From assembly GCA_903906315.1 (NCBI GenBank), contig CAIVJW010000281.1:1-59032 (forward strand): a stretch of 59,032 bases of DNA, in the 5' to 3' direction. Below, in pieces: positions 352-56,427 of this stretch. The notes beneath the pieces were generated by a model. That model made no database searches. It worked only from the letters and a program-made list of their open reading frames with translations, and was not told the origin of the DNA. Source of the DNA: an uncultured delta proteobacterium. GTDB taxonomy: Bacteria > Myxococcota_A > Polyangia > Polyangiales > Polyangiaceae. Numbering within the stretch: position 1 is the first letter of the stretch; each line of letters begins with the position of its first letter. Both the position numbers and the translations under genes were made by a program.

Positions 352-591
352 GAGACCACCCTACCACGGTGCACCGGGCGACCGGTACGGGTCGCAGCCG
401 ACGCGAACGCATGGGGCCCGAGGTCGCTACCCGCCGCCGCTCGCACTTGATACGGTGGAAACAGACGATGGGAGCCTGGGTGCTGGCCTGAGTCGGCGGG
501 AGCCGCTCGCCCTGAACGAGCGCGCGCTTCCGGTCCTCACTTCGACGGGCTACCGCGCTTCTCGGCCGGCTGAGCCTCGCGCGTGGTTCTG

Positions 592-9859: not shown

Positions 9860-11224
9860 GTGCGGGCACTCTTCTTTCGCTTGGGGGTCGACCGGGCCGT
9901 GCTGCTCACCCTGTTCGCGCGCGGCTGGGGAGTCGGCGCCGGACTGCTCACGATTGGCTTCGTGACGCGATTTCTCTCTCCGGAGCTTCAGGGCTTTTAC
10001 TATACGTTCTACAGCCTAATCGCTCTCCAAGTCTTCGCTGAACTCGGGCTTAACTTCGCGATCGTCCAGTTTAGCAGCCACGAGATGGCACACCTGACCT
10101 GGGCGCCCGACGGTACGGTCACCGGCGACCCCGGCGCCAAACGGCGGCTTCAATCGCTGCTCAGCTTCGCGGTCACGTGGTTCGGAGTAGCCGCGGTACT
10201 GTTGGTCGCGGTCCTCGGCCCCGCCGGCGTCCGCTTCTTCGCTCGCGCCTCCGCCGCCGCCGGCGGCACGAGCGTCGCGGTCCCCTGGCTGCTGCTCGTC
10301 GTGTTCTCCGCGGCGAACCTGCTGGTCAATGCGTTCGCAGCCTTGCTCGAAGGCTGCGGACGGGTCGCCGAGACAGTGTTACTTCGCCTCTTTCAGTCCG
10401 TCGCCGCGACTCTCGGCATCTGGGCGATGCTCGGCGCCGGCGGGCGCCTCTATGCCGTCGCCGCGAGCAGCTCGATGATGACGCTCGTGGGAGCCGCGTG
10501 GCTTCTCCTTCGCCATCGGGCGTTCTATCGAGACCTTCTGGCCCATCCGAGGACGCTCCCGGGGATGAGCTGGCGAAGGGAACTCTGGCCCTTCCAGTGG
10601 CGCATCGCAGTCAGCTTCACAAGCGGCTACATGCTCACCCAGCTTTTCAACCCGCTGCTTCTCAGCCTTCGCGGCCCCGCGGAGGCTGGGCGCATGGGCC
10701 TCAGTCTTCAGGTACTGTCAGCCATGAACGGGGCAGCCATCGCCTGGATCACGACCAAGGCCCCAACCTACGGCCAGCTGATCGCCAAGGGCCAGACGCA
10801 AGCACTGAAGGCACTCTTCGGGCGCGGGGTCGCCCAGTCGTTCGCGTTCTTGGTACTCAGCATGTTTTCCGTCTGGAGCATGCTTCTCTACCTGTCGACC
10901 ACAGGGTCGAAGTACGCGATGCGTGTCCTCCCCCTCCCGCTGTTCTCGCTGCTGTGCCTCGCCGGTCTGGGGAACCACTTCGTCATGGCACAGGCGGCCT
11001 ATCTGCGGGCTCACAAGCAGGAGCCCTTCATGTGGCTGTCCATCGCGAACGGCTTTGCGACGGCGGCGCTCGCGATCCCTCTCGTATCGCTCTGGGGCGC
11101 AGGCGGCGCTGTCATCGCGTACACGTGCACCGCCCTCTTGATCGGATTTGGGGGAGGCACGTTCGTGTTCCTTCGCAAACGTCGACAGTGGGACACCCAG
11201 CGGGCGGAGCCAACTGCATCATGA
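9860..11224 (+). CDS. Wzx-like polysaccharide flippase (MOP superfamily)
   Basis: 454 residues with about twelve hydrophobic segments, starting directly with RFLSPELQGFYYTFYSL, the N-terminal pattern of Wzx/polysaccharide-transport proteins. Such proteins flip undecaprenyl-pyrophosphate-linked repeat units across the inner membrane. The start is GTG 9860, about 9 nt after a purine-rich GGTGAGG; the stop overlaps the next ATG in ATGA at 11221-11224, so the GT2 gene is coupled. It is the only flippase candidate in the window. The residues between about 80 and 100 form a small hydrophilic insertion with the phrase TWAPDGTVTGDPGAKRR, which is not a usual feature. The family is poorly conserved, so the call rests on topology and context. 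Confidence 0.8.
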   Translation: MRALFFRLGVDRAVLLTLFARGWGVGAGLLTIGFVTRFLSPELQGFYYTFYSLIALQVFAELGLNFAIVQFSSHEMAHLTWAPDGTVTGDPGAKRRLQSLLSFAVTWFGVAAVLLVAVLGPAGVRFFARASAAAGGTSVAVPWLLLVVFSAANLLVNAFAALLEGCGRVAETVLLRLFQSVAATLGIWAMLGAGGRLYAVAASSSMMTLVGAAWLLLRHRAFYRDLLAHPRTLPGMSWRRELWPFQWRIAVSFTSGYMLTQLFNPLLLSLRGPAEAGRMGLSLQVLSAMNGAAIAWITTKAPTYGQLIAKGQTQALKALFGRGVAQSFAFLVLSMFSVWSMLLYLSTTGSKYAMRVLPLPLFSLLCLAGLGNHFVMAQAAYLRAHKQEPFMWLSIANGFATAALAIPLVSLWGAGGAVIAYTCTALLIGFGGGTFVFLRKRRQWDTQRAEPTAS

Positions 11225-24947: not shown

Positions 24948-26018
24948 TCAACGCCCAAGGATCGATGTCCACCGCCCAAGCCAGCTATCCTCACTCCAGG
25001 CGATCTTCTCTCCCTCGTTGACAAGCGAGAGCACCAAGAAGCAAAGCCACGCCGCCGCGGCCAATTTTCCGCGCAGCTTCCTGAGACTACGTGACAGCAC
25101 GATGCTCACCATGGCGTTGCACATGCCGAACAGGCGAGCCGCAGCCTCGTGAAAAAATGTGACCACAAACGATGTGATAACCATCGCGATGGCCACGTCA
25201 TGGATCCTGCGCCCGTCTTCGTCCCCCGCGCCCGGACGGCCGAGGTAGAGAGCCAGCCCATACTGCGGCACAGCGAGGACGTAAAACTTGTAGTTCAAGC
25301 TGTTCTGGAACGAGTACGATGAACGACGGCCAAACTCGACCATTCGAAACGTCCCGAGCAGCTCGGGGAATACCACCATGACAGCCAGCGACGCAATGAC
25401 CACCAGGACGATGGCTTCGGCGCGCTTCCGCGTGGATAGAAACCCGACAGTGGCGATCAGGACCAGCAGGAAGGACGTGTGAACCAAGGCCGCCAGACCT
25501 GCGCCCAGCCAGATCGCGGACCGCGGGCGGGCGCGGCCGAGCGCGGAGACGGCGAGGAAGAGCGACAGCGCCACTCCTTGCCGGATCTGGTTGAAATACA
25601 TCTGGGGACCGATGAGGACGTCCAGCACAAACGTGGCCAGCACGAAAGCGGCCACCCCTCCAGAAAGCGTCGCACTGCCATAGAGAAAGCCAGCGACGCT
25701 GATCGCGATTGTGAGACGCAACGCTTGCTCGTCACCAAGCAGGTCACCTGCGAACGGCGCGTACGCCACCCAGAGCGGCTCCTCGACGATGCGAACCCAG
25801 ACGCTCGGCGAACTCTCGATGGCACCGTAGCCACCGAAGTAGTTGAGGTAGGCCCAGTCGTCGGGCGCGACGCCGATCTGGCGCCCGGACATCAGCACGA
25901 CGAGCGCGAGGATGGCCACCCAGCTGAGGATTCCTATTCCGGCAAACCGGGCAGGGATCTGGAGCCAGGTCCAGGACCTCTCGCCGGTCGAATCCGCCTG
26001 CCGAGGAGCTCCGATCAT
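24948..26018 (-). CDS. EpsG-family membrane protein (Wzy-like polymerase)
   Basis: 356 residues with about nine to ten hydrophobic segments. EpsG-type signatures are the early loop DDWAYLNYFGGYGA, then EPLW (here EEPLWVAY), and the conserved NQIRQGVALSLF after the central helices. EpsG proteins are integral membrane proteins of exopolysaccharide loci and are regarded as polymerases of the Wzy type. The ATG overlaps the stop of the large exported protein by 4 bp. As the polymerase/ligase-like protein at 592-3258 also exists, the two may serve polymerisation and transfer, or two different polymers. Confidence 0.85.
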   Translation of the reverse strand: MIGAPRQADSTGERSWTWLQIPARFAGIGILSWVAILALVVLMSGRQIGVAPDDWAYLNYFGGYGAIESSPSVWVRIVEEPLWVAYAPFAGDLLGDEQALRLTIAISVAGFLYGSATLSGGVAAFVLATFVLDVLIGPQMYFNQIRQGVALSLFLAVSALGRARPRSAIWLGAGLAALVHTSFLLVLIATVGFLSTRKRAEAIVLVVIASLAVMVVFPELLGTFRMVEFGRRSSYSFQNSLNYKFYVLAVPQYGLALYLGRPGAGDEDGRRIHDVAIAMVITSFVVTFFHEAAARLFGMCNAMVSIVLSRSLRKLRGKLAAAAWLCFLVLSLVNEGEKIAWSEDSWLGRWTSILGR

Positions 26019-28426
26019 GGCGCCCTCATGATCTCGAGCAGGGCCATGCTGCCCGTCCTCGACGTGTCCAGCTCGACGGCTGCTGCCAGCGACGTCGTCG
26101 TCTTGCCCAGATGGTCCACCAAGACGTCGCGCGCCCGGTCGGCGCCGAGACGGTCCAGGTCCATCCGGAGTGTACCACTCTCTCCTCCCCCACGATCAGA
26201 GTGCGACAGAACCGTCAACAGCACCTTGCGCCCGCCGATGCCGAGTCGATGGACTCGCACCGTAGTGTCGACCTTTGCGGGGAAGGTGCGGCGGCTGGGC
26301 TCGAACGTTGCCCCGTCGCCTGGCTGCCCCAGGACGTAGTAGTCCTCGACGTCGGCGAGGAGCGTCGAGATCTCCGAGAGGCCGACCAGCGTCGTCGCGT
26401 CGGCGAAGGCCGACACTCCGCGATAGTAGCCGATACCCTTCACGACATCCGAGGTGGAGGTCAGGTCGAATGCCCGAAACCGGAGGTTTTGTGGCTGCTC
26501 GAGCGCCCGCCCGGCGGAGAGGTTGAAGAGCGGAATCACGTCGGCATGACCTGATCGCCGACCGTAGATGCCCTCACCGATTCCACGCACGAGCTCGCGA
26601 TGGTTGTGCTTCCCATAATAGCCCGTCGCGTACCACTGCGGCATGGTGTACGTGTACGCTCGAGACCAGGACGCTTGCTCCTTCAGTCCGAGGTCTGCAG
26701 CTCCGCTGGGACCGTACGGCCCAGCCGTGTTCACGACGGCGGCGAGCGGATCGACGCTTCGAATCGCCTCTGCCAGGTTCTCGGCAGCTCGGGTGTACAG
26801 GGCAAGGTTGAAGGACTGCCAGTGTTGACGCAGACTGCCCGATGCCACCAGGGCGGCGCTCGCGACGCTCGGCAGACCCTCCGCGGCCGCGAAGACGCGA
26901 AGGGTCGACTCGTCGTAGCTCGGCCGAACAGCCTCGAGCCCGTCGGTGATGAACCCGGTGTATCGAAACGCGAGGCCCAACGTGCGTGGTCGGTCGAGCG
27001 TGCGCTGGATGGCGCGCAGGGGCCCACCAGTCCAGGCGGCCCCTCGTTGTGCGGCGTAGCGCAGGCTGACCCGCGCAGGGTCGGTGAGCCCATCGGCGTT
27101 CGTCTCGCGCTCCTGCACCGGCGCCGGCGCCTCGAACAGCTGGCTGCTATTCGGCCAGAATCGGGTGACGCCGTGCTCGCGGGCGGCGCGATCTCGCACG
27201 AGGTCGTCTGCCGTCGGGGTGGGCCCCTCGTCGAGCAGCGCCGTGTAGTCGCTCCACACCGTACCGCCGAGCATGGCGAACTGGCGCGGAAGAGCGGCAA
27301 GGCGCTCGGGCCAAGACATCTTCCAGTCCTGCACGTCGTAGACGACGACCTCGAGGCGCCTGGGACGACGGAGGCGCTTCGGCGCCGCGACCGGAACGAG
27401 CCGGATGATCTGCCGTGAAACGACCTCACCTGCGTCGAGCACCTCCGCGAGGACGGAAGACTCGGCTCCGCTCGGCACGGTGACCCAGAACCCACCGAAC
27501 TCGACCGCCGATTCGGGGCCTTTCACGAAGCGCGGCAACGCGATCTCGTGCACCGTCGTGCGCCGGGCTCCGTCGTTCCGCATCTCGGTCGTGTGAACAG
27601 GCCCCTTCCCTGGGAACCGCCACCGATCGAGCAGCTCGTCGTTGAAGCCCGACACGACGACGCCCTCTGGCACCGCGAGCCGAAGCACGGGTCGGCGAAG
27701 CCGCCCCGGGGCCATCGTGCTGAACGCCAGGTCGACGAACTGAGACTCACCAACAAGGTAAGCTTGGACGCCCGCGGAGCGCTCTCGGTTCGTCGGGGTG
27801 AGGTCCACGAACAAGTGCGGAGGATGGGGCTCACCGGCGGCGACTACGGCACAGCGGGCATCGTCGAGAGCGATGCCGCCCGCGCGCGACTCGAGCGCGA
27901 CAACGACCGGGCCGGCGGCTCGCACGTCGAAGTCGGCGAAATACTCCCGATATTCGAGTGACATCACGGGGACGGTGAGGCTCTTCGTGCCCAGAGACAG
28001 CCGCAGTTGCGGCAGCGCAGACGCGCCGTTGATGCGGGCCCAGACGCTCACCCGATAGGTGCCTGGGTCGACCGCCACACGCTGCGAGATGCGCGAAACC
28101 CGCTCGCTTGTGTACACCTCGATCGCTCGAGCGCCGGTCCGGGGGGTGGCATCGCCGTGGCCTCCGCCGTCTGGGGTCACGTCGTAGACGTACGCTGGGT
28201 CTGCGCCGGCGAGGTTCTCGACGCTCCAGCCCACGGCATCGGCGTCCTCGAAGCCCGGGTTGACGAGCCGGTTGGCGGTGCTCGGGGGAGGCCCCGGGGC
28301 GGGCAGGTCGGGGGGAGCGACGGCCAGCCCTCCGGCCGTCGGCACGGCGCAAGCACTCCCGGAAGCCACGAGCGCCGCGAGCACCCTTGCGCGACGGCCG
28401 GCCCTCCGCGGCAACGCGGCGCTCAC
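26015..28426 (-). CDS. large exported glycosidase-like protein of unknown function
   Basis: 803 residues from GTG 28426, which overlaps the methyltransferase stop in GTGA; the longer frame to 28558 overlaps that gene and is rejected. The N-terminus is basic then hydrophobic, ending ASGSAC, compatible with a signal peptide or a non-standard lipobox. Residues about 48-170 look like a CBM4/9-type carbohydrate-binding sandwich (RLVNPGFEDADAVGW). A beta-rich region follows. From about residue 350 a region with alternating strands and helices (VVVYDVQDWKMSWPERLA, FWPNSS, RYTGFITDGLEAVRP) resembles a TIM-barrel glycoside hydrolase, and a beta domain ends the protein. I do not recognise the family. 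Its place between a methyltransferase and EpsG suggests trimming, remodelling or release of the polymer in the periplasm or outside. Confidence 0.7.
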   Translation of the reverse strand: MSAALPRRAGRRARVLAALVASGSACAVPTAGGLAVAPPDLPAPGPPPSTANRLVNPGFEDADAVGWSVENLAGADPAYVYDVTPDGGGHGDATPRTGARAIEVYTSERVSRISQRVAVDPGTYRVSVWARINGASALPQLRLSLGTKSLTVPVMSLEYREYFADFDVRAAGPVVVALESRAGGIALDDARCAVVAAGEPHPPHLFVDLTPTNRERSAGVQAYLVGESQFVDLAFSTMAPGRLRRPVLRLAVPEGVVVSGFNDELLDRWRFPGKGPVHTTEMRNDGARRTTVHEIALPRFVKGPESAVEFGGFWVTVPSGAESSVLAEVLDAGEVVSRQIIRLVPVAAPKRLRRPRRLEVVVYDVQDWKMSWPERLAALPRQFAMLGGTVWSDYTALLDEGPTPTADDLVRDRAAREHGVTRFWPNSSQLFEAPAPVQERETNADGLTDPARVSLRYAAQRGAAWTGGPLRAIQRTLDRPRTLGLAFRYTGFITDGLEAVRPSYDESTLRVFAAAEGLPSVASAALVASGSLRQHWQSFNLALYTRAAENLAEAIRSVDPLAAVVNTAGPYGPSGAADLGLKEQASWSRAYTYTMPQWYATGYYGKHNHRELVRGIGEGIYGRRSGHADVIPLFNLSAGRALEQPQNLRFRAFDLTSTSDVVKGIGYYRGVSAFADATTLVGLSEISTLLADVEDYYVLGQPGDGATFEPSRRTFPAKVDTTVRVHRLGIGGRKVLLTVLSHSDRGGGESGTLRMDLDRLGADRARDVLVDHLGKTTTSLAAAVELDTSRTGSMALLEIMRAP

Positions 28427-29289
28427 TCCCCGCGTGCCCCACGATCGAGCTTGAAGAGCCACTCGTCGCAGCCGCTCGAGGTCGCAATGGAAATGCCTTG
28501 CGTCAGGGCGCGCTCGCGCACGAGCGAGAACCCGAGGCCGCCAAGGAATTCGCGGCACGCGGGCGGCGTGATGGACTCGTAGGGATACCCACCAAGCCAG
28601 TCATCAACGTCTCGAACGTAGTCCATGCCCCGCCCGATGGCGCGCGACCCCTCGGCGACCATCGAGTCAAAGTCGCGCCCCTTGAGCCTGAAGGCAAGTC
28701 GAGTTTTTGCGATCCACGCCGCGCGGAGCCACGACCGGACCCTCTCCGGCGCCGACGAGTAGAAGCGCTTCTCAACTTTCCACACGGGACAGAGAATCGT
28801 CTTCCGGTAGAGCGCGAGGTAAAAGAGGCCTCCCGAGCGCACCTTCGCCGCGGCATTCTCGATGGCGCTGAACATCTGACCCGTGTGATGAAGTACCCCC
28901 CACGAGTACACGATGTCGAACTCCGGCAAGCTGGCCATGAAGTCCCGGTCAAGCACCGAGCCCTGGTGCACGGTCCAGTCCGCGTCGTTCGGGAAGTAGC
29001 GCCGCCGGAGCTCGGCGGTGCACCAGACGGAGCCGGAGTCGAAGTCGAACGACACGACCCGCGCTCCCAGTCGCCGCGCCGCGAGGGAGAACAGGCCGCT
29101 GCCCGACCCAATGTCGAGCCAGGTCACCCCGTCGAGGCGCGGACGACCGAGCCACTCCGAGAGGGAGCGCTCGGCGTCGACGATGCGGCGTTCATCGAGG
29201 AGGGCGAGGTACTGCTTCCAGTTCTCCCCGAAGCCATAGCGGGCCCCTTCGGCCTCGTCGAAGGTCGGGCGGCGGTCGGATACGTTCAT
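28423..29289 (-). CDS. class I SAM-dependent methyltransferase, paralogue 1
   Basis: 288 residues. The SAM-binding motif I is LDIGSGSGLFSLAARRLGA, the post-I acid lies in VSFDFD, and the motif IV/V region reads FDIVYSWGVLHHTG. This is a methyltransferase 11/25-type fold, with a C-terminal helical region ending in a sheet. It is closely similar to the protein at 34408-35292 through the whole catalytic domain. The substrate is unknown; O-methylation of a polymer sugar is likely given the locus. It heads block A, overlapping the exported protein gene by 4 bp. Confidence 0.87.
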   Translation of the reverse strand: MNVSDRRPTFDEAEGARYGFGENWKQYLALLDERRIVDAERSLSEWLGRPRLDGVTWLDIGSGSGLFSLAARRLGARVVSFDFDSGSVWCTAELRRRYFPNDADWTVHQGSVLDRDFMASLPEFDIVYSWGVLHHTGQMFSAIENAAAKVRSGGLFYLALYRKTILCPVWKVEKRFYSSAPERVRSWLRAAWIAKTRLAFRLKGRDFDSMVAEGSRAIGRGMDYVRDVDDWLGGYPYESITPPACREFLGGLGFSLVRERALTQGISIATSSGCDEWLFKLDRGARGE

Positions 29290-29459: not shown

Positions 29460-32400
29460 TCAACCCGTCCGAAACAAGAATCGGCGACGGCGGCGCCGCA
29501 ACGCGGCGAATGCGACCGCGACCAGTCCGCCCACGGATGGGTGACCGAAGGGGAACCCGCCAGGGGTCGAGCAAGCACACCCCTCAGCGACGATGACCGC
29601 CGCCGGACTGGGTGCGCTCGAGCGGGCACCACCCGGTCCAGCGGTCACCGCCGAGGCGCCACCCTCGCCGCCGCCGGCCCCCGTCGGCCCGGAGCCACCG
29701 GCCGCGCCGGTGCCGCCCGCGCCTCCGTGACCGCCCGCGGCAGTGCCGGCTCCGCCCGCTCCGCCCGCCGCTCCGCCACCGGCCCCGCCGTCGGAGCCAT
29801 TCAACAGGTGGACCAGCACACCGTTCGAGGAGGTATCGGCCGACCGCCCAGCGGCAGAAACCGCGCGTACGCCAATATAGTACTTCGACCCGTCGTGAAG
29901 CACCAGGTTCAGAATCGCAGCCGAAGAAACGTTGCCGACGTCGGTCCAAGAGGGCTTCGTCACGAACAACGAGCTCGGCGTCGCCACTGCAACCTCATAG
30001 GACACGGCGCCTGCGACGGGCGCCCACGCCGCCCACAGTGTAGTGTGCGTCGACACGTCGCTGATGTCGGCGTCGCTGATGCCGTGGTCCGGGTCCGTCT
30101 CGTAGACGAACGCTGGAGCGGGAAGAATCTCATCCTTGAGAGCGTAGAGATAGCCATCCGCCACGCTCACCAGGATTTCGTCCTTCCCGTCGCCGTCCGT
30201 GTCCCCGAAGCTCGGTGAGCCGACGGGAGCGCCGAAGGCGTGCGCCCATCGGAAAGCGCCAGTACATGCATCGACCGCGTAGAGGTAGCCGTCCGTCGAG
30301 CCGACGAGCGCGGTCGGCCCGCTACCGGCGCCATCGAGGTTCAGGGAGACGGCAACGTCGGTGAGCCGGCCGATGGCCGCCTTGGCCGCGACCGCGGCAG
30401 CGACATCGAGATAGGCCGCGCCCGAAGCGAGGACGATCGTGGTGAAGGCCCCCGGAGTGGCGCCGCCCGTTTGAGTGAATGCCAGCTGCGAGGGCGTGGA
30501 AAACGACCCTTCCACGAGCATGCCCCCCCCGGCACAGGGTGCAAGTGCGCCATATGGATAGGGGGCCCCCGGGCCCTTGCTGGTCCACTTGGACTTCAAC
30601 GTCTCATCGAGCGCACTGGCAGGGTAGTAGCCGCCCTGAAGGAGCATGTCTGTCTTGCCGTCTGCATCGAGGTCAGCAAGGATAGGCATGAAGTACCCAA
30701 AGACGTCCGTGCCAGTCGCAATCTCGGCCCCATTCTTGCCCGAGTAGACGTGCGCGACATCGAGCACGATGGCAACGTCTTCTGCACCGTCTTGGTTCCA
30801 GTCGCCAACGGCAAGCGGCTGGGTCCCCGCCTGCGGGACGAGCTGCTGCGTCCACACCGAAGCGCCCGTCGAGGCCATGACCGTGATGTCGGCGATTCCG
30901 GTCGCGCCATCGAAGTCGAAGCCGACGAACGAGGTCGAGCCGTCGGCGGCGAGGTCTCCCGGGAGCACGTCCCAGAGCGGCCTCCGCGGGAGCGCCAGGC
31001 TCGCGAGCTCTGCTCCGTCTGGGCTCACGCTGGAAATGACGTACTCGGGAGGGTCCGCGAGCGGGTGGACTCGCCGATAGGCGCCGATGGCGGCGGCCCC
31101 TACCGCCGAGGGCCTGATGGCCGCACCGAACGAGTCGGCCAGGCGCCACTGCGGCTGGGCCGGCGCGACGATCGATGCGCCGATGCCGCTGTAGCGCACG
31201 AGGTCACCACGGCTGTCGACGACCAAGACGGCATCTGCGGGGTCGGCCGCCTTCAGCTTGCCGGCGATGGGGGGGCGCCCGAAGCTATCAAAGGCTCCCG
31301 GACCGGTGTAGTAGCCACCGACGAAGGTGCCGGGGAGCGCCGCCGCGCCGTCGAACGTCGGGTTGAGCGTGGCGAATCCGGCGTCGAGCAGCGCAAGGTA
31401 GCCGTCGTTCCTGGCGAGTGCGAGCACGCCGACACCGCTGAGCGCGCGAGGCGTGACGACGGCCGTCGCGCTGACCCGCGCGTCAAGCGCATAGGCAGCG
31501 ACAGCCGCAGGCGGAGCGCTGGCGAGCGAGTACGCCGTCATGGTCTCCGGCTCGGCGACCGAGGTCAGCACGACGGCCGAAATGCCCCCCGGCAGCGAGA
31601 GCGTCACGAGCGCCGTCCCGAGCGCGCTGCGCTCGGCGAGGGCGTAATCGCGCTGCGTCACGATCTTCTGGCCGGCGAGCTGCCAAGCGAGTGTCAGCGC
31701 GGGCGGACTGCGCGTGAACACATACCCGGCGACGTCCGTCCCGTGGGACACGAGCAGCAAGCGCCCCCCGGGCAGGCCTTCGACGTCACCGGCGGCGACG
31801 CCCGGCACGACGGCGATCTCGGCGCCGGTCGTGGCGTCGAGAACGTGCGCTGCGTACTCGCCATCGGGAGCCAGCCCACTGACGACGGCCTCGATCTGGC
31901 CATCGCCGTCGAGATCGACCGCGAGCCTCGACGGCGAGCGCGCGTCACCACCGGCGAGCGCGCTCGCGCTGAACTGCCACAGCAGCTGCAGCGCGGGAAC
32001 CTCGGCGGGCCGGTAGGCGAGTGCGAATAGACCGCGGATTCCGCCATTGGCGTAAGCGGCGTTGCCGTAGCAGAGGAGCTCCTCTCCGGGAACGCCGTCC
32101 ACGTCGGCAGCGAGGCACTGGGATCGGGTGGGTATTGCTCCGGAGGTGGCCAGAACCTTCCCGTCTGCGTCAAACATCTGGGCGGTCTCGACACCCATGG
32201 AGATCATCTGTAGATGCCCGTCCCCGAGAAAGGCTCCAATCGTGTTCGATTGAGCGCGGCAGTGCGGCCGAAGCGGCGGCGGGCCCAGCTTCGTCGGCGC
32301 TGCGATCCCCGACTTGAAGCTGTAGATGAATCCCGCGGCGCCGCTTTCGACCTCGCAGCATCCGCACGTGTCGAGCCACAAGTCGGAAGCGCCATCTCCG

Positions 32401-32882
32401 TTCACGTCACCGAGGCGGAACGCTCCTGGCGTGCCAAGCTCGCCAGCCGGCTCCTCCCACGCGACGAGCCCCGTCTTCCCCGCCACCACGCTCACACCCC
32501 AACCCGTGGCGACGACGACCTCGAGCTGGCCATCGACGTCGAGATCGACGACGGAGAGGATCTGCTGGTAGCCGCGAGACCCGGTGCGCCACGTCGTCCC
32601 GCCCGTCGCGTCCGTCAGCACGAGGTCGCCCCCGGCGATGTAGAGCACGTCGTCGCCGCCATCCTGGTCGACGTCACCCAGGTAGACCTGGGCTGACCCT
32701 CCGCCGAGGCGAGCCCGCCAGTAGGGCGCGGGCTTCTTGATGTCGCTCCCGGTCGTAGAGACGGCAGTCCGCCGGAGGTCGTGCCGCGCGGATGGCCAGT
32801 CCGCAAGGGCGGGGGTGCTCGTCGCGGTCGTGCCGCCGAGCACGAGGCAGCCGACCCAAGAGCGAAGCGGCGACATACGCAT
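29460..32882 (-). CDS. secreted FG-GAP/VCBS-repeat protein with MYXO-CTERM-type tail
   Basis: 1140 residues. A signal peptide (MRMSPLRSW through TPALA, cut before D) is followed by many FG-GAP-like calcium-binding repeats, for example LGDVDQDGGDDVLYI, LGDVNGDGASDLW, VDLDGDGQIEAVV, VGDWNQDGAEDVAIV, LADLDADGKTDML and GDTDGDGKDEILV, predicting one or two beta-propellers. A fibronectin-III-like domain lies near residue 1000. Then comes a Gly/Ala linker and a tail of the form GCACSTPGG, a hydrophobic stretch and RRRRRR: a MYXO-CTERM-type sorting signal, expected to be processed by a myxosortase and leave the protein on the cell surface. The start at 32882 is set by GGAGG seven bases upstream; the 193 codons of open frame before it are non-coding. 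It may be an adhesin or polysaccharide-binding protein. Confidence 0.85.
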   Translation of the reverse strand: MRMSPLRSWVGCLVLGGTTATSTPALADWPSARHDLRRTAVSTTGSDIKKPAPYWRARLGGGSAQVYLGDVDQDGGDDVLYIAGGDLVLTDATGGTTWRTGSRGYQQILSVVDLDVDGQLEVVVATGWGVSVVAGKTGLVAWEEPAGELGTPGAFRLGDVNGDGASDLWLDTCGCCEVESGAAGFIYSFKSGIAAPTKLGPPPLRPHCRAQSNTIGAFLGDGHLQMISMGVETAQMFDADGKVLATSGAIPTRSQCLAADVDGVPGEELLCYGNAAYANGGIRGLFALAYRPAEVPALQLLWQFSASALAGGDARSPSRLAVDLDGDGQIEAVVSGLAPDGEYAAHVLDATTGAEIAVVPGVAAGDVEGLPGGRLLLVSHGTDVAGYVFTRSPPALTLAWQLAGQKIVTQRDYALAERSALGTALVTLSLPGGISAVVLTSVAEPETMTAYSLASAPPAAVAAYALDARVSATAVVTPRALSGVGVLALARNDGYLALLDAGFATLNPTFDGAAALPGTFVGGYYTGPGAFDSFGRPPIAGKLKAADPADAVLVVDSRGDLVRYSGIGASIVAPAQPQWRLADSFGAAIRPSAVGAAAIGAYRRVHPLADPPEYVISSVSPDGAELASLALPRRPLWDVLPGDLAADGSTSFVGFDFDGATGIADITVMASTGASVWTQQLVPQAGTQPLAVGDWNQDGAEDVAIVLDVAHVYSGKNGAEIATGTDVFGYFMPILADLDADGKTDMLLQGGYYPASALDETLKSKWTSKGPGAPYPYGALAPCAGGGMLVEGSFSTPSQLAFTQTGGATPGAFTTIVLASGAAYLDVAAAVAAKAAIGRLTDVAVSLNLDGAGSGPTALVGSTDGYLYAVDACTGAFRWAHAFGAPVGSPSFGDTDGDGKDEILVSVADGYLYALKDEILPAPAFVYETDPDHGISDADISDVSTHTTLWAAWAPVAGAVSYEVAVATPSSLFVTKPSWTDVGNVSSAAILNLVLHDGSKYYIGVRAVSAAGRSADTSSNGVLVHLLNGSDGGAGGGAAGGAGGAGTAAGGHGGAGGTGAAGGSGPTGAGGGEGGASAVTAGPGGARSSAPSPAAVIVAEGCACSTPGGFPFGHPSVGGLVAVAFAALRRRRRRFLFRTG

Positions 32883-33202
32883 GAACCATCCTCCAGATCC
32901 AGCGCGATGGCGCGCGAGCTGACCGGTGACCGTAGCACGCGCCGCGACGACCCTCACGCCGTCCCGAGCGGGCAGCCGCCCGCGGGCCAACGCGCGCCGG
33001 CACGCGAGGCGGAGGCAATGTCGTGACAGCCGTCTCCCACAGCCCCATCGCGGTGCGATGCGGCAGGCGCTTGCGCCTTCAACCGCGCGGCGGGGGACGC
33101 CGCGTCCGGCGCGCGGCTCGCGCTGTGAGCACTCGGCCGCAGGGTTCCGCCGCTTCGCGCGCCCGTGGCCGGCCGTCGGAGCGGAGATGCGCCGTCGCGG
33201 TG
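32883..33202. other. 320-bp intergenic gap before the FG-GAP gene
   Basis: No coding pattern on either strand. It holds the Shine-Dalgarno of the downstream gene and a hairpin with CGCGGCG (33086-33092) and CGCCGCG (33098-33104) around a 5-nt loop, about 100 nt after the glycosyltransferase stop at 33203. This stem may end block D or act as a leader structure. A promoter for the FG-GAP gene is expected here but no convincing boxes were found. Confidence 0.35.
32890..32894 (-). promoter_or_regulatory. Shine-Dalgarno fixing the start of the FG-GAP protein
   Basis: GGAGG on the minus strand, seven bases before ATG 32882. It decides against the much longer open frame that begins at 33461. Confidence 0.7.
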
Positions 33203-34348
33203 CTAGCGGCGGGACCATGACGCGCGGCGACGGTCGACGACACCTCGAACGAGCTCCTCCGTACGGTCCACGAGACGCTCGACACCGAAGGAGGTCTCGA
33301 TGTGCGCGGCCGGGTCGGGCAGCGAAGCCGCAGCTGGATCGAGCGCGACCAGAAGGGCGTCGCCAAGCGCTGCGGCGTCGCCGCTCGGCACGACCCAGCC
33401 GCACCGCCCGACCACTCGAGCGCTGTCCCCAACGTCCGTCACGACGGGTCGGACCCCACACGCCATCGCCTCGGCGACGACATTTGGAAAGCCCTCCGAG
33501 GTCGACGCCGAGACGATGAGTTGGAGCGCGGAGTACGCCGGCACGAGGTCAGACGAGCTCCGAACCCAGTGGCACTGCGCGCTCACGCCCAGGCTCCGCG
33601 CCAGCGCCTCGAGCTCGCTCCTGCGCGAGCCGGGATCCGCCCCGACGACGACGAAGTGGGCGTCGGCTCGCCGAGCGGCGAGGCGCCTCGCAGCGCGAAG
33701 AAATGCCTCGTGCCCCTTGATCGGGTCCAGGCGGCCAACGATGCCCACCAGGGGGGTGGCCGGCGCCACGCCGATGCTTGCGCGAAACCGCGCCCCCGCT
33801 GCGCTGTCGAAGCGCCACTTCTCGCACTCGAATCCATTCTCGACGACGGCCATGCGGCCAGCCGGGAACCCCGCCCGACGGGCGTGCTCCCGGCCGGCCT
33901 CCGAGTTGACGATGATGAGGTCCGCCATGGTGGCCAAGCCGACCTCAACCCGGTGGGATACGACAGATATCCAGCCGTACTTCGACAGATCCACGTTCGC
34001 CGAGCGAATTCCCCAGATTGTTGCACACCGTCCAAAGGGAGCAACTAGGGCCGCGAGAATGTTCGCGCCGCCCATGTAGCTGAGCAGCGCGTCCGGAGCG
34101 CGCTCGCGCGTCTCCCGGCGCAACGCGCGAGCGGAGTGGAGGACATCCCACCGCCCTCCCTTGTCGAGGGACGTGACCTCGAGCCCACGGGCAACGGCTT
34201 CGCGCTCGAAATGTCCGCCCCGATAAAAGGTCACAATGCGCACACGGTGGCCTCGTCGGGCCATGCCGGAGGCAAGCAGCACGAGCTGCCGCTCCGCGCC
34301 GCCCTGACCGAGGGATCGGATGAGGAAGTCTATCGTGATGGACTGCAT
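33203..34348 (-). CDS. GT4-family glycosyltransferase
   Basis: 381 residues of GT-B fold. It begins with the acceptor-domain start FLIRSLGQGGAERQL; the donor domain has VENGFECEKW, LVGIVGRLDPIKGHEAF, VVVGADPG and the E-x7-E motif in TSEGFPNVVAEAM. It resembles the enzyme at 23399-24544. It is the last gene of block D, 59 bp after a methyltransferase, and its 3' end is followed by a 320-bp gap. It probably adds one sugar of the repeat unit; donor not readable. Confidence 0.9.
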   Translation of the reverse strand: MQSITIDFLIRSLGQGGAERQLVLLASGMARRGHRVRIVTFYRGGHFEREAVARGLEVTSLDKGGRWDVLHSARALRRETRERAPDALLSYMGGANILAALVAPFGRCATIWGIRSANVDLSKYGWISVVSHRVEVGLATMADLIIVNSEAGREHARRAGFPAGRMAVVENGFECEKWRFDSAAGARFRASIGVAPATPLVGIVGRLDPIKGHEAFLRAARRLAARRADAHFVVVGADPGSRRSELEALARSLGVSAQCHWVRSSSDLVPAYSALQLIVSASTSEGFPNVVAEAMACGVRPVVTDVGDSARVVGRCGWVVPSGDAAALGDALLVALDPAAASLPDPAAHIETSFGVERLVDRTEELVRGVVDRRRASWSRR

Positions 34349-34407: not shown

Positions 34408-35292
34408 TCATCGCGCGCCTTCGAGATCATGACGGGCAGTTGGCGTCGCTCGTTCCGCGTCCGAGTGCGCAGCTCGCCGGAAGACGAATTCGTTGCACCC
34501 GAGGCGATTCGTGGTCTTGATCCTGACGAGCTCGAATCCGGCCCTTCGATGGAGCTCGACGACGTCGCCTGGCTTCGCCACCTCGAACGGGAGGCCACCG
34601 AGCCAGTCGACCCAGTCGTGAACGGGTGACATGCCGCGCCGCTTCCAGTAGTCGACGAAGCGCTGGAGCGGGCGTCCGTGCCGCACGAGGCCGACAGCCA
34701 TGCTCTGGAGGGCGAACCAGGGGACGAACGACGAGAGAACAACTGCCCGGGCGACGGGGCCCGAGCAGTAGGTGCGCTTGACGGCCAGCCAGAACCTCGA
34801 GAGTTCCTCCTGGTCATTATACAGCGCGATGAACAGCAGCCCGCCCTCAGCCACCGCGCGCATCGCGTTGCTGAGCCCCTTGGCCAGGTCGCCCGTGTGA
34901 TGGAGCACTCCCCACGAGTAGACCACGTCGAACTTGCCCAGTGAGGCGAGGTAAGCCTCGTCGAGTGCGGAGCCCTCCTCGACGGACCAGGCCGGATCGT
35001 CAGTGAAGTACCGACGGCGAAGCTCCATCGCGCACGCGACGGACTCGGGGTCGAAGTCGAATGAGTGGACGCGAGCACCGAGCCTCCGAGCCGCGAGGCT
35101 GAAGAGCCCGCTGCCCGAGCCGATGTCGAGGAATCGCATGCCTGAGAGGTCGTCTACCCCGAGCATCTGCCGAAGCGATTCCACCGCCTCGCGCACGCGG
35201 TCCTCGTCGAGCGTCCGGAGAAAGCTGCGCCAGTTCGACCCGAACTGGAATCTCTTGCCCTGCTTCACGTCCTGGAGGTGTTCGTTTGACAT
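34408..35292 (-). CDS. class I SAM-dependent methyltransferase, paralogue 2
   Basis: 294 residues. It shares LDIGSGSGLFSLAARRLGA, HSFDFD and FDVVYSWGVLHHTG with the protein at 28423-29289. The open frame reaches 35511, but that part overlaps the aminotransferase gene; MSNEHLQD at 35292 is the likely start and gives the same length as the paralogue. The gap to the aminotransferase gene is 79 bp. Predicted to methylate a sugar or precursor in the polymer. Having one copy in each of two operons suggests duplication inside the locus followed by divergence in the substrate-binding C-terminal third. Confidence 0.87.
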   Translation of the reverse strand: MSNEHLQDVKQGKRFQFGSNWRSFLRTLDEDRVREAVESLRQMLGVDDLSGMRFLDIGSGSGLFSLAARRLGARVHSFDFDPESVACAMELRRRYFTDDPAWSVEEGSALDEAYLASLGKFDVVYSWGVLHHTGDLAKGLSNAMRAVAEGGLLFIALYNDQEELSRFWLAVKRTYCSGPVARAVVLSSFVPWFALQSMAVGLVRHGRPLQRFVDYWKRRGMSPVHDWVDWLGGLPFEVAKPGDVVELHRRAGFELVRIKTTNRLGCNEFVFRRAAHSDAERATPTARHDLEGAR

Positions 35293-35371
35293 GGTGTCTC
35301 GTGGTGTTGTCCCGATGGTCCTGGTGTGGCCATTCGCGCCCGGCGCGCCGGCGCGGCGAGGTGCCCACAGA

Positions 35372-36481
35372 TCACGTCGCGCCCGCCAGTGCCCCGACAA
35401 CTTCGCCGATCTGGGCCTCCCCCAGTTCGGCATACATCGGCAGGGCCAGCGACGTTCCGGCCGCGCGTGCGCTCGACGCGAACACGCGACCGCAGCTGGG
35501 AAGCCCGGCAAAGCACTCCTGCTCGTGCAGCGGGAGCGGGTAGTAAACTTCTGTACCGATGCCGCGGGCTGCGAGCGCCGCTCTGACGTCGTCGCGGCGC
35601 TCGCAGCGCACGACGAACTGGTTGTAGACGTGCCGTCGCCCCGGAGCCTCCTGCGGAAGCTCGATCCGGCAAGCGACGTCGGCGGCCCTCAGTAGCTCGC
35701 AGTACAGTCGAGCGCTGCGCCGGCGCGACTCCGTCCAGCGCTCCAAGTGCCGGAGCTTGACGAGCAAGACGGCCGCTTGAATGGCGTCGAGCCGAAAATT
35801 TCCGCCGACGATGGCGTGCCTGTGCTTCTCCCGAGCGCCGTGTACGCGCAGGAGCCGGAGCCGATCCGCGCGAGCCGAATCGCTCGTAACGACCATCCCG
35901 CCGTCGCCGACGCCGCCGAGGTTCTTCGAGGGGAAGAAGCTGAAGGCACCGTAGTGCCCCATCGACCCCGCGGGGCGCGTGCCGTGGCGCGCCGCGAGGG
36001 CCTGGGCGGCGTCCTCGATGACGACGAGGCCGTACCGGGCGGCAAGGGCGAGGACGGCGTCCATGTCCGCGGTCTGCCCGAAGAGGTGGACAGCAATGAC
36101 CGCTCGGGTACGCGGCGTGATCAGCGCGGCCGCAGCGGTCGGGTCGAGCGTGAAGGTCCGCGGATCGACGTCGACGAACACCGGGGTGGCGCCAACCCGA
36201 GCGACGACGCCGGCCGTCGCGAAGAATGAGTAGTCGGGTACCAAGACCTCGTCGCCAGGACCGATCCCCTCGGCCATCAAGCAGGCGAGCAGTGCGTCCG
36301 TGCCCGAGCTGACACCGACGCCGTACTCGGTGCCGCAAAGCACCGCGATCCGGCGTTCGAGCTCCTCGACGCAGGGGCCGAGAATGAACTGCTGCGAGTC
36401 GAGCACACCGCGCACGGCAGCCTCAATCTCACCGCGAATGGGGCGATGCTGTGCGGCGAGGTCGAGGAACGGGACCGGCAT
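35372..36481 (-). CDS. wbpE: WbpE-type UDP-3-keto-sugar aminotransferase
   Basis: 369 residues of the DegT/DnrJ/EryC1 family. It starts PVPFLDLAAQHRPIRGEIE and has Asp157 in VVIEDAAQA and the PLP lysine Lys186 in SFFPSKNLGGVGDGG, the WbpE/WlbC-type active-site segment. WbpE converts UDP-2-acetamido-3-keto-glucuronic acid to the 3-amino sugar in the UDP-GlcNAc3NAcA pathway. The preceding genes are WbpD- and WbpB-like, so three consecutive steps of that pathway are encoded together. It lies 20 bp after the acetyltransferase gene. A 3-amino sugar without the carboxyl group is the alternative, because no WbpA is present in the window. Confidence 0.9.
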   Translation of the reverse strand: MPVPFLDLAAQHRPIRGEIEAAVRGVLDSQQFILGPCVEELERRIAVLCGTEYGVGVSSGTDALLACLMAEGIGPGDEVLVPDYSFFATAGVVARVGATPVFVDVDPRTFTLDPTAAAALITPRTRAVIAVHLFGQTADMDAVLALAARYGLVVIEDAAQALAARHGTRPAGSMGHYGAFSFFPSKNLGGVGDGGMVVTSDSARADRLRLLRVHGAREKHRHAIVGGNFRLDAIQAAVLLVKLRHLERWTESRRRSARLYCELLRAADVACRIELPQEAPGRRHVYNQFVVRCERRDDVRAALAARGIGTEVYYPLPLHEQECFAGLPSCGRVFASSARAAGTSLALPMYAELGEAQIGEVVGALAGAT

Positions 36482-36501
36482 CGGACTTGTACCCCGACCT
36501 C

Positions 36502-37143
36502 TCAGGCGACGCCCGCCGACGGTGGCTCGATCAGCATCGCCGAAGGGAGGGCGTGATCCTCGGGGACGTCGAGGCAGCAGAGGACGCCGGGCGCGAACTC
36601 GCGATAGGCGAAGCCGCTCGCCGGGCAGACGTGGACCGCATCCACCTCGCGGCGCACCAGGGGTACGCCGTGGCGTCCTACCCAGCCGACGCGGCGCGCG
36701 GGCACCCCCACCACGAGCGCATAGTCGGGCGCGTCACGCGTGACGACGGCCCCCGCACCCACGAGCGCATAGCGGCCGACGGTGACACCGCAGACGATCG
36801 TTGCGTTCGCGCCGACGCTCGCGCCACGCCGGATTCGCGTGCGCTCGTAGCGCTCGCGACGGCTCACCTCGGCGCGTGGGGTCGACACGTTGGTGAGCAC
36901 GCAGGACGGCCCGAGAAAGACGGCGTCCTCGACGATCACCCCGTCGTAGATGGAGACGTTGTTCTGGACCTTGACGTCATCGCCGACGACGGCGTCGCCG
37001 GCGACGTAGCACCCCTGGCCGAAGCTGCAGCGGCGACCGATGCGCGCCCCGCTCTGCACGTGGCAGAAATGCCAGATCCGCGTGCCCTCGCCAATCTCGC
37101 AGGGCTCGTCGACGTACGACGACTCGTGCTTGAAGTAGCTCAC
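36502..37143 (-). CDS. wbpD: WbpD-type UDP-amino-sugar N-acetyltransferase
   Basis: 213 residues from GTG 37143, which overlaps the WbpB stop in GTGA. From the first residues it forms a left-handed beta-helix of hexapeptide repeats (YVDEPCEIGEGTRIWHFCHV, GARIGRRCSFGQG, AVVGDDVKVQNN, VFLGPSCVLTNV), ending TVGRYALVGAGAVVTRD and VVGVPARRVGWV as in WbpD/WlbB. These acetyl-CoA enzymes acetylate the 3-amino group of the UDP-sugar. The last 40 residues (a short Cys-containing tail) are longer than in the roughly 190-residue relatives. Unlike the NeuD-type gene at 19.0-19.7 kb, this acetyltransferase is intact. Confidence 0.9.
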   Translation of the reverse strand: MSYFKHESSYVDEPCEIGEGTRIWHFCHVQSGARIGRRCSFGQGCYVAGDAVVGDDVKVQNNVSIYDGVIVEDAVFLGPSCVLTNVSTPRAEVSRRERYERTRIRRGASVGANATIVCGVTVGRYALVGAGAVVTRDAPDYALVVGVPARRVGWVGRHGVPLVRREVDAVHVCPASGFAYREFAPGVLCCLDVPEDHALPSAMLIEPPSAGVA

Positions 37144-38105
37144 GACCCGCGGCTCGCCTCGACGAGCTGGGGGTGCGCCTCGTTGCCGAACGGGGCCATC
37201 GAGGCGGTCCGAATGCGGTAGGCGAGCTCGATCGATGGCCGCGCGTCGGCGATGCCGACACCCTCGCCGGCGAGGGTGCGCTCGTAGACGCGAGTGTGCA
37301 GGTCCGCGAAGCCATCGGTGAACTCGACCTCGTGACCGTCCACGATGATCGACCGATGGGTCGTGCGACCGCCGGGCACCGCCGGGAAGGGCAGGTCGGC
37401 GCGGTCGACGGAGAGCAGCCAGCGCACGTTCGCGCGCGCGAGCTCGAGGTAGCCGGCGGCGCGGCTCGCTTCCTGAACGTGCACGACCGAGCGCTCCGCG
37501 GGACCAAACAGCCACAGGAGCAGATCGAAGAAGTGAACGCCGATCTTCGTCGCCACGCCGCCAGATCGTTCTTCGGAGCCCTTCCAGGACAGGTGGAACC
37601 AGCCGCCGCGCGCGGTGATGTACGTGAGGGTCACCTCGTGCCTGCGGCCGGCAACATCAACCTGACGGAGGCGACCTCGTAGCGCAAGCAGCGCCGGGTG
37701 GACGCGGAGCTGCAAGACCGTGAAGACGCGGCGTCCCGTCTCCAGCTCGAGGGCCTCGATCGCGTCGAGGTTCCACGGGTTGATGACCAGGGGCTTCTCG
37801 CAGATCGCGTCAGCCCCGTTGCGGAGGGCGAGTCGGATGTGCGCGTCGTGCAGGTAGTTCGGCGAGCAGATGCTGAGGTAGTCGATCCGGTGCTCACGCG
37901 GCCCCCGACGGAGCTTGTCTACGTGACGCTCGAAGCGCTCGATCTCGCGAAAGTACTTCGCGTCGAAGCTGTAGCTGTCGAGGATACCGACGCTGTCGTG
38001 CGGGTCGGCCGCGGCGACGACTTGGTTGCCGGTCTCCTGGATGGCCTTGAGGTGCCGAGGCGCGATGTACCCCGCGACACCCGTGATGCCGAAGTTGAGA
38101 GGCAT
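37140..38105 (-). CDS. wbpB: WbpB/WlbA-type UDP-GlcNAc(A) 3-dehydrogenase
   Basis: 321 residues of the Gfo/Idh/MocA family. FGITGVAGYIAPRHLKAI is the NAD-binding start, DSVGILDSYSFDAKYF and the signature Lys104 in CEKPLV follow, then the Asn-Trp segment NPWNLDAI typical of WbpB/WlbA. It oxidises C3 of UDP-GlcNAcA (or a related sugar), giving the 3-keto compound used by WbpE. MPLNFG at 38105 is the start; the open frame to 38402 lies in the preceding gene. It is 4 bp after the PglF-like gene and overlaps wbpD. WbpA and WbpI homologues are not in the window, so the substrate must come from elsewhere. Confidence 0.93.
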   Translation of the reverse strand: MPLNFGITGVAGYIAPRHLKAIQETGNQVVAAADPHDSVGILDSYSFDAKYFREIERFERHVDKLRRGPREHRIDYLSICSPNYLHDAHIRLALRNGADAICEKPLVINPWNLDAIEALELETGRRVFTVLQLRVHPALLALRGRLRQVDVAGRRHEVTLTYITARGGWFHLSWKGSEERSGGVATKIGVHFFDLLLWLFGPAERSVVHVQEASRAAGYLELARANVRWLLSVDRADLPFPAVPGGRTTHRSIIVDGHEVEFTDGFADLHTRVYERTLAGEGVGIADARPSIELAYRIRTASMAPFGNEAHPQLVEASRGS

Positions 38106-38109
38106 GTGC

Positions 38110-40068
38110 CTACCCGGCGGCGCCGGCCACGTCCGCGGCTCGGGGCCGGACGGCAGCTTCGGCGGCGGGCTCGCGGACGATCGGCCCGATGGGCTCGGCC
38201 CGAACCATCTCCGGCACGACCGCGCGCAGGGCCGCGCGCACCACATCGCTCGTCGGCTCCCGCGTGGCCGCGCGCAGCTGGGAGAGCGCCCGGGAGATTT
38301 CGTCCCAGTCCCGCGCCACCATGGTGCCGTCGAAGATCTTCGAATGCCGCGTCTTGCGCATCTTCTCCGCGTCGAACCCGAGCTCCTCGAACAGCTTCTC
38401 ACCCGGACGAACGCCGGAGAATTGGATGCGAATATCCTCGTCGACCACGAAGCCGCTCAAGCGGATGAGGTCGCAGGCGAGGTCGACGATCTTCACGGGC
38501 TCACCCATGTCGAGCACGTAGATCTCGCCTCCGTGCCCCATCGCCGCGGCCTGGAGCACGAGCTGGCTCGCCTCAGGGATGGTCATGAAGTAGCGCTTCA
38601 TCTCCGGGTGCGTGACCATTACCGGCCCGCCCTTCGCGATCTGCGCTTTGAAAGTCGGGATGACGGACCCGGCCGAGCCGAGCACATTGCCGAAGCGAAC
38701 GGCGACGTACTTCGTCGACGACCTCTGCGACAGGGCCTGCACATACATCTCGGCCACGCGCTTCGTGGCGCCCATCACCGAGCTCGGGTTGACGGCCTTG
38801 TCGGTGCTGATGAGGACGAACGCATCGACCCGGTGCCGATCCGCGGCGTCCGCGACGGCCTTCGTCCCGAAGACGTTGTTCTTCACGGCCTCGCCGGGGT
38901 TCCACTCCATCATCGGCACGTGCTTGTGAGCGGCCGCGTGGATGACGACGTGCGGCGCCTGCTCGGTGAAGACGGCGTCGAGCCGCTCCCCGTCGCAGAC
39001 ATCGCACATCGCCGGCACGATCGGGAGGCTCGGGAACGCCTCGAGCAGCTCCTGGTGAATGAGGAAGAGATGGTACTCGGAGCGCTCCACGAGGACGAGC
39101 CGCTCGGGTGCGAGCAAGGCAACCTGCCGGCAGAGCTCCGAGCCGATCGACCCCCCAGCCCCCGTCACCAGCACGCAGCGGCCGCGCACGAACCGCTCGA
39201 CGAGGTCCGTCTCGAGCTGGACGGCCTCGCGCCCGAGGAGATCCTCGATCGAGACCTCGCGGATGCGGGACAGGTTCACCTTGCCATCGAGGATCTCGTG
39301 CACTCCGGGCACGATCTTGACCGCGATGTCCTGGTCGGCGCAGATCTGCTGGATCCTGCGGATCTGCTTCCCATCGGCGCGGGCGATGGTGATGATCGCT
39401 TGCTTGACGCCGAGCGCGAGGGCGATCCCGCCAATCTTGTCGGTCGTGCCGAGCACCGGCAGCCCCTCGACGACCATGCCCACCTTGAGGGTGTCGTCGT
39501 CGATGAAGCCGACCGGGCTGATGCCGAGCTCGGCATGCTTGGCGATCTCGCGAGCGACCGACACGCCCGCCTGCCCCGCGCCGATGAGGAGCGTCGCCTG
39601 CGCCGCGGGGGCGCGGCTGCGACGTGGGGCCGCTGCCAGCATCGCGCTGCGCTCCGTCTGAACACGGCGCGCGACTCGGATGCCGGCCGTGCCGAGCAAG
39701 GCGAGCATGAAGTCGATGCCAATGACACCAAACGGAATGACGGCATACTCGAAGAAGTAGTGGACGCTCCAGAGCCGCGACGACGCGATGCGAACCCCCG
39801 CGAGCCCGACCGCGGCAATCGTCAGGGCTGAGGCGATGCGGCGTACCTCGCGAAGACCGACGTAGCTCCAGGCGAAGCGCGGCACGCCCCTCGCTGCGAG
39901 CGCCAAATACTGGAACCCCACGACGTAGGGCCACGTGAGCAGCCAGCTCTTGAACATCGAGAACGGCGGCCACCCCTCGAAGCGAAGCAGGAACGCAAAG
40001 AGGTACGCCAGCGACAGGACCGTGAGGTCCGCCAGCACCTGAGACGTTCGTGTGAGGATCCGTCGCAT
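38110..40068 (-). CDS. PglF/WbpM/CapD-type UDP-GlcNAc 4,6-dehydratase, membrane-anchored
   Basis: 652 residues. Four N-terminal membrane segments (about residues 10-130) lead to two Rossmann parts: one with LLIGAGQAGVS (about 158-168) and the catalytic one with LVTGAGGSIGSE (about 298-309). The catalytic segment STDKAVNPSSVMGATKR at about 418-434 has Met in place of the usual Tyr of SDR enzymes, as in PglF/WbpM. FMTIPEAS and GEKLFEEL follow. The enzyme makes UDP-4-keto-6-deoxy-GlcNAc from UDP-GlcNAc at the membrane, the first step to bacillosamine and FucNAc-type sugars. It heads block D; a DegT aminotransferase and the PglC-like enzyme, 19-21 kb away in block B, are the expected partners. 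Confidence 0.95.
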   Translation of the reverse strand: MRRILTRTSQVLADLTVLSLAYLFAFLLRFEGWPPFSMFKSWLLTWPYVVGFQYLALAARGVPRFAWSYVGLREVRRIASALTIAAVGLAGVRIASSRLWSVHYFFEYAVIPFGVIGIDFMLALLGTAGIRVARRVQTERSAMLAAAPRRSRAPAAQATLLIGAGQAGVSVAREIAKHAELGISPVGFIDDDTLKVGMVVEGLPVLGTTDKIGGIALALGVKQAIITIARADGKQIRRIQQICADQDIAVKIVPGVHEILDGKVNLSRIREVSIEDLLGREAVQLETDLVERFVRGRCVLVTGAGGSIGSELCRQVALLAPERLVLVERSEYHLFLIHQELLEAFPSLPIVPAMCDVCDGERLDAVFTEQAPHVVIHAAAHKHVPMMEWNPGEAVKNNVFGTKAVADAADRHRVDAFVLISTDKAVNPSSVMGATKRVAEMYVQALSQRSSTKYVAVRFGNVLGSAGSVIPTFKAQIAKGGPVMVTHPEMKRYFMTIPEASQLVLQAAAMGHGGEIYVLDMGEPVKIVDLACDLIRLSGFVVDEDIRIQFSGVRPGEKLFEELGFDAEKMRKTRHSKIFDGTMVARDWDEISRALSQLRAATREPTSDVVRAALRAVVPEMVRAEPIGPIVREPAAEAAVRPRAADVAGAAG

Positions 40069-56319: not shown

Positions 56320-56415
56320 GTGCATTTCATGGGCGAAAGGAGATTGCGGTGCCTCGGGCCCCGGCGACGCAGGTATGGTGGCGTCCTGGGCTTCCCATTT
56401 GGGAGCCTCTTGAAC

Positions 56416-56420
56416 GGAGG
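56416..56420 (+). promoter_or_regulatory. Shine-Dalgarno fixing the start of the CTDC-repeat lipoprotein
   Basis: GGAGG seven bases before GTG 56428. It favours this start, which begins a clear signal peptide, over the in-frame ATG at 56320, which lies in the terminator stem. Confidence 0.7.
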
Positions 56421-56427
56421 GCATCAC

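Follow-up and report, generated by a model that had tools for sequence, protein, structure and literature searches.

The gene and its polysaccharide cluster

The gene under study lies at 26015–28426 on the minus strand of the window (the whole stretch of 59,032 nucleotides that was analysed). It is read from 28426 to 26015, as a GTG-initiated open reading frame of 803 codons. It is preceded by a methyltransferase gene (28423–29289, minus strand; Methyltransf_23, E = 1.9e-10) and followed by a gene for an EpsG-type polysaccharide polymerase (24948–26018, minus strand; PF14897, E = 1.5e-17). The gene start and the methyltransferase stop share 4 bp (GTGA, 28423–28426), while the gene stop shares 4 bp with the ATG of EpsG (26015–26018). 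The coupling to both neighbours, which had been proposed in a prior sequence-only reading, is real; since these overlaps occur on both flanks inside a polysaccharide operon, co-expression with the polymerase is implied. The 803-residue protein is confirmed as the product of a real gene because full-length homologues of 40–46% identity are found in another phylum (see below). The G+C content of the gene (0.687) and its GC3 (0.81) were in line with those of neighbouring genes.

The gene content of the window is consistent with a Wzx/Wzy-type polysaccharide cluster, inside which the 803-codon gene lies. Besides EpsG, the cluster included a Wzc-type chain-length regulator/tyrosine kinase (3406–5742, plus strand), a Wzx-like flippase (9860–11224, plus strand; NF041503, E = 4.1e-18, under the curated cut-off), a Wzy_C ligase-type protein (583–3258), glycosyltransferases and a priming sugar transferase, in agreement with the polysaccharide locus that had been proposed.

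Several other features of the window were recorded. The methyltransferase at 28423–29289 and another at 34408–35346 (both minus strand, same cluster) are of the same type and similar in sequence, apparently through duplication. A large protein with FG-GAP/PQQ repeats and an end resembling MYXO-CTERM is encoded at 29460–33461 (minus strand), inside the polysaccharide cluster; the 8.79 Mb genome produced 15 MYXO-CTERM matches, compared with none in 14 control genomes, and is on this basis probably that of a myxobacterium. Consecutive Gfo/Idh oxidoreductase, hexapeptide acyltransferase and DegT genes (35372–38402, minus strand) resemble WlbA-WlbB-WlbC and may direct diacetamido uronic acid synthesis. 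A protein encoded at 56320–58941 (plus strand) contained 14 matches to Dicty_CTDC, a Dictyostelium repeat (PF00526, E = 5.6e-100).

Signal peptide and accessory domains

The most likely domain order was signal peptide, CBM61-like domain, second beta-rich domain, barrel and C-terminal beta-rich domain. The signal peptide (28337–28426, minus strand; approximately residues 1–30) has a charged n-region and then a hydrophobic stretch (VLAALVASGSACAVP), with a possible lipobox-like GSAC. Signal-like N-terminal sequences were also present in three complete homologues, which bears out the earlier view that the protein is exported; its destination would be the periplasm or the cell surface.

A carbohydrate-binding-like domain follows at 27833–28279 (minus strand; approximately residues 50–198). 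Comparison by hhalign matched it to modules of GH53 galactanases over approximately 140 residues (probability 98.9). The top PDB sequence matches of the N-terminus, in a search made without preselection, were the galactanases 2xom and 9fli, both weakly (E = 0.02 and 0.07). Fifteen loci, preselected by the motif NPGFEDAD, matched the N-terminal region only, and all four of those examined carry GH53 galactanases. The 2xom module is a CBM61, and 'CBM61-like' is a fair label for the domain, consistent with the carbohydrate-binding-like N-terminus suggested previously. GH53 itself, which these matches brought forward as a catalytic family, was ruled out (barrel against GH53, probability 0.1); the module that is common to the GH53 endo-1,4-beta-galactanases (2xom, 9fli) is attached here to a different catalytic domain.

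The second beta-rich domain (27383–27829, minus strand; approximately residues 200–348) separates the CBM-like domain from the barrel, with its strands seen in a low-confidence model. The C-terminal beta-rich domain (26018–26275, minus strand; approximately residues 718–803) was conserved among homologues; compared alone with the wider Armatimonadota family described below, it scored below significance (probability 12.5).

Homologues and their genomic context

A peptide scan of 84,980 species recovered two true relatives, both in Armatimonadota, and a profile search identified homologues in four of 291 Armatimonadota genomes, with 40–46% identity to the 803-residue protein. The 376 other Myxococcota genomes searched yielded no homologue. 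Among 182 other genomes of the same order the only match was a weak one of 64 residues (in G069), and among the genomes of relatives only one to the CBM region (in G066); viral contigs and plasmids produced no relatives. These genome searches score few candidates per genome, and a missing homologue is therefore no proof of absence. On one Armatimonadota contig a second, partial homologue was present 1.4 kb downstream, fused to another reading frame (L001:4332–4802).

In two Armatimonadota genomes the neighbouring genes encoded GH95, DUF4838, an M60 peptidase, a methyltransferase and a sugar kinase, along with a putative transaldolase-like protein, and the neighbourhoods examined look catabolic. 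An EpsG gene was undetected in all four homologue-bearing Armatimonadota genomes; the gene is rare among relatives too, occurring in two of 97 genomes with its own genome counted. The prediction that linkage to epsG would be conserved consequently fails, and the coupling is particular to its own genome. Taken together with the catabolic-looking neighbours, the genomes that lack EpsG indicate that the family has no fixed link to polymer synthesis.

Affinity of the barrel region

Family libraries did not place the protein. Pfam returned nothing for it at E-values of up to 1, and NCBIfam likewise gave no match; its homologues matched no Pfam family up to E = 5, except for CBM_4_9 in one (E = 0.25). 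Searches of PDB sequences with the protein and with the profile gave no significant match, the weak ones including that of the N-terminus to 2xom. AlphaFold returned a pLDDT of 36 for the full protein and for the barrel alone (three sequences each), and Foldseek with this barrel model found no meaningful match.

Profile-profile comparison supports a TIM-barrel domain of the GHL10-type superfamily at 26321–27379 (minus strand; approximately residues 350–702). Alignments were made with MAFFT from small sets, and E-values refer to single comparisons. The profile of the barrel alone (five sequences) matched an unannotated Armatimonadota family, the members of which had been collected with the protein's own profile, at a probability of 98.0 (E = 2.6e-13); when the C-terminal domain was included, this rose to 98.9 (E = 2.8e-17, 379 columns), against 0.2 for a reversed control. 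Control alignments of GT4, DegT and GH53 with the barrel profile each gave 0.1. The unannotated family in turn matched GHL10 (PF02638) at a probability of 96–97, while direct comparison of the barrel with GHL10 was modest (42–67). The GHL10 profile finds Cwp19 (PDB 5oq2) at E = 1.3e-109, and Cwp19 is a TIM barrel that cleaves peptidoglycan (PMC5765458, PMC6016235), for which the barrel structure and active-site proposals have been published (PMC5765458).

The unannotated family (L106, L107, L108, L110–L113, L117, L118, L125, L044) has the barrel region in common with the 803-residue protein (probability 98), as well as the segment after strand 4 (YD..TL..F...GL) and the acids there. It differs in having D-x-E where the protein's own family has D-x-x-E, in its length (approximately 800–1200 amino acids) and in its other accessory domains, with identity of approximately 14% in the profile alignment. 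Weak profile matches in larger Armatimonadota proteins nearly always fell on the segment after strand 4; some of these proteins were bona fide GHL10 members, matched on the strand 4–6 segment, and others belonged to no family. Most of the large Armatimonadota barrel family (L106, L107, L108, L110–L115, L117, L118, L125) has no name in Pfam or NCBIfam, and many of its members display a strand-4 motif of the WDWEP type.

Conserved residues

The strand-4 motif of the protein, GFITDGLE (26933–26956, minus strand), takes the form GFITD(G/A)LEG across the family, and D495, E498 and the aromatic pocket residues were invariant in all five homologues. Strand 6 was likewise invariant in 5/5, both for E583 and W587 (D/E-x3-W) and for MPQWY at residues 595–599 (26630–26644, minus strand), which matches the PQ-x-Y of GHL10 (Gln295 and Tyr297 of Cwp19). 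The W..N of strand 3 is retained as well. GHL10 proteins (PF02638, e.g., Cwp19, PDB 5oq2/5oq3) have in common with this protein the terminal W of strand 1, the W..N of strand 3, the strand-4 Asp, the D/E...W and the PQ-x-Y.

There are differences as well. GHL10 has D-D-Y-F-Y-P on strand 4, whereas the protein has the first Asp only, followed by a Glu three residues on. By spacing, D495 probably corresponds to Asp195 of Cwp19 rather than to its catalytic candidate Asp196, which would make E498 the second acid in this protein. At the position aligned by eye, the protein does not conserve Arg132 of Cwp19, and GHL10 is without the extra beta-rich domains that flank the barrel on both sides here. 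Canonical membership of GHL10 (PF02638) was rejected, the protein being under the Pfam gathering cut-off and lacking the D-D-Y-F-Y-P motif.

Paired acids at the barrel strand ends had been anticipated. The pair after strand 4 (D495 and E498) is invariant, but there is no invariant acid at the end of strand 7, although E643 is invariant in the loop that follows; the end of strand 7 in Cwp19 likewise lacks an acid (Gly328). D692, E694 and D695 are considered unlikely catalytic acids, because LLADVEDYY follows strand 8 and is probably in a helix.

The possible TIM barrel of the sequence-only reading thus gains support from homology, as does the putative carbohydrate-binding N-terminus. Its suggestion of a family that could not be placed holds for the family libraries and fails for the superfamily: given the chain of profile matches and the retained GHL10 landmarks, the protein is best described as a new, unnamed family of an existing superfamily, that of the GHL10-type barrels, and not as a categorically new enzyme.

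Interpretation

With moderate confidence, the protein is interpreted as an exported, multi-domain member of an unnamed GHL10-type barrel family that likely trims, releases or clears the polymer of its locus. According to this model, the protein would be exported by Sec, its N-terminal domain would bind the polymer that the EpsG/Wzx/Wzc system produces, and the barrel pocket would cleave glycosidic bonds by means of the strand-4 acids (D495 and/or E498), such that polymer chains would be trimmed, released or cleared. A narrower version is offered tentatively and is open to considerable doubt: the protein would represent a new family of glycoside hydrolases that combines a binding domain of the galactan type with a GHL10-type barrel, has an unusual D-x-x-E arrangement of acids after one strand, and processes the Wzx/Wzy polymer during export.

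The Armatimonadota homologues point in another direction. Clear homologues occur in that phylum only, beside GH95, DUF4838, the M60 peptidase, the sugar kinase and the putative transaldolase-like gene; the distribution is patchy, and a CBM61-like domain is typical of galactanases. The protein might then be a catabolic or scavenging glycosidase for foreign polysaccharides that arrived by gene transfer and does not process the locus polymer. This was judged unlikely, given that the gene shares 4 bp with each neighbour, which implies that it is co-expressed with the polymerase, and that base composition fits the neighbouring genes.

Two further explanations concern the barrel itself. A barrel without catalytic activity, serving to bind the polymer and to aid its export, attachment or chain handling, would agree with the lack of a complete canonical pair of acids between strands 4 and 7, and PgaB demonstrates that a C-terminal domain of this sort can be critical for export (PMC5933820). 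However, every one of the five homologues retains D495, E498 and the aromatic residues of the pocket, and GH153 itself uses a single proposed strand-4 Asp (PMC5933820), so that a pseudoenzyme appears distinctly improbable. Even less credence was given to a barrel acting on peptidoglycan, whether by opening a way for the polymer machinery or by remodelling the wall. DigH, a GHL10 protein too, would be a precedent alongside Cwp19, which is a characterised member. Peptidoglycan is cleaved by Cwp19 (PMC6016235), and DigH is described as a peptidoglycan glycosyl hydrolase (PMC12288456); against this, the active-site details of the 803-residue protein differ from canonical GHL10, its gene sits in a polysaccharide operon, and its N-terminal domain appears galactan-type rather than wall-binding.

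Processing of the locus polymer is retained as the preferred reading. These results place an unannotated family, together with the much larger Armatimonadota family, in a barrel superfamily of barely explored chemistry. Biofilms can usefully be loosened with glycosidases from polysaccharide operons, and for the 803-residue protein both a candidate substrate, its own locus's polymer, and specific residues are defined.

Comparison with known systems

Trimming or release of the polymer of the locus, as for PgaB, appears to be the best-supported role. The C-terminal domain of PgaB (GH153) is a TIM-barrel glycosidase that is exported and whose gene belongs to an exopolysaccharide operon, with a role in polymer processing and, in the Bordetella protein, one proposed key Asp on strand 4 (D474; PMC5933820); PgaB is also the closest DALI match of Cwp19 (PMC5765458). 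No sequence match links the two, in that neither the protein nor its profile retrieved a PgaB PDB chain. PgaB is furthermore fused to a deacetylase and belongs to a synthase-dependent PNAG system, in contrast to the Wzx/Wzy system here. PslG, PelA and BcsZ belong to other families, and no sequence relation between them and the 803-residue protein was found; what they have in common with it is the functional idea of a glycosidase encoded within a biofilm polysaccharide operon.
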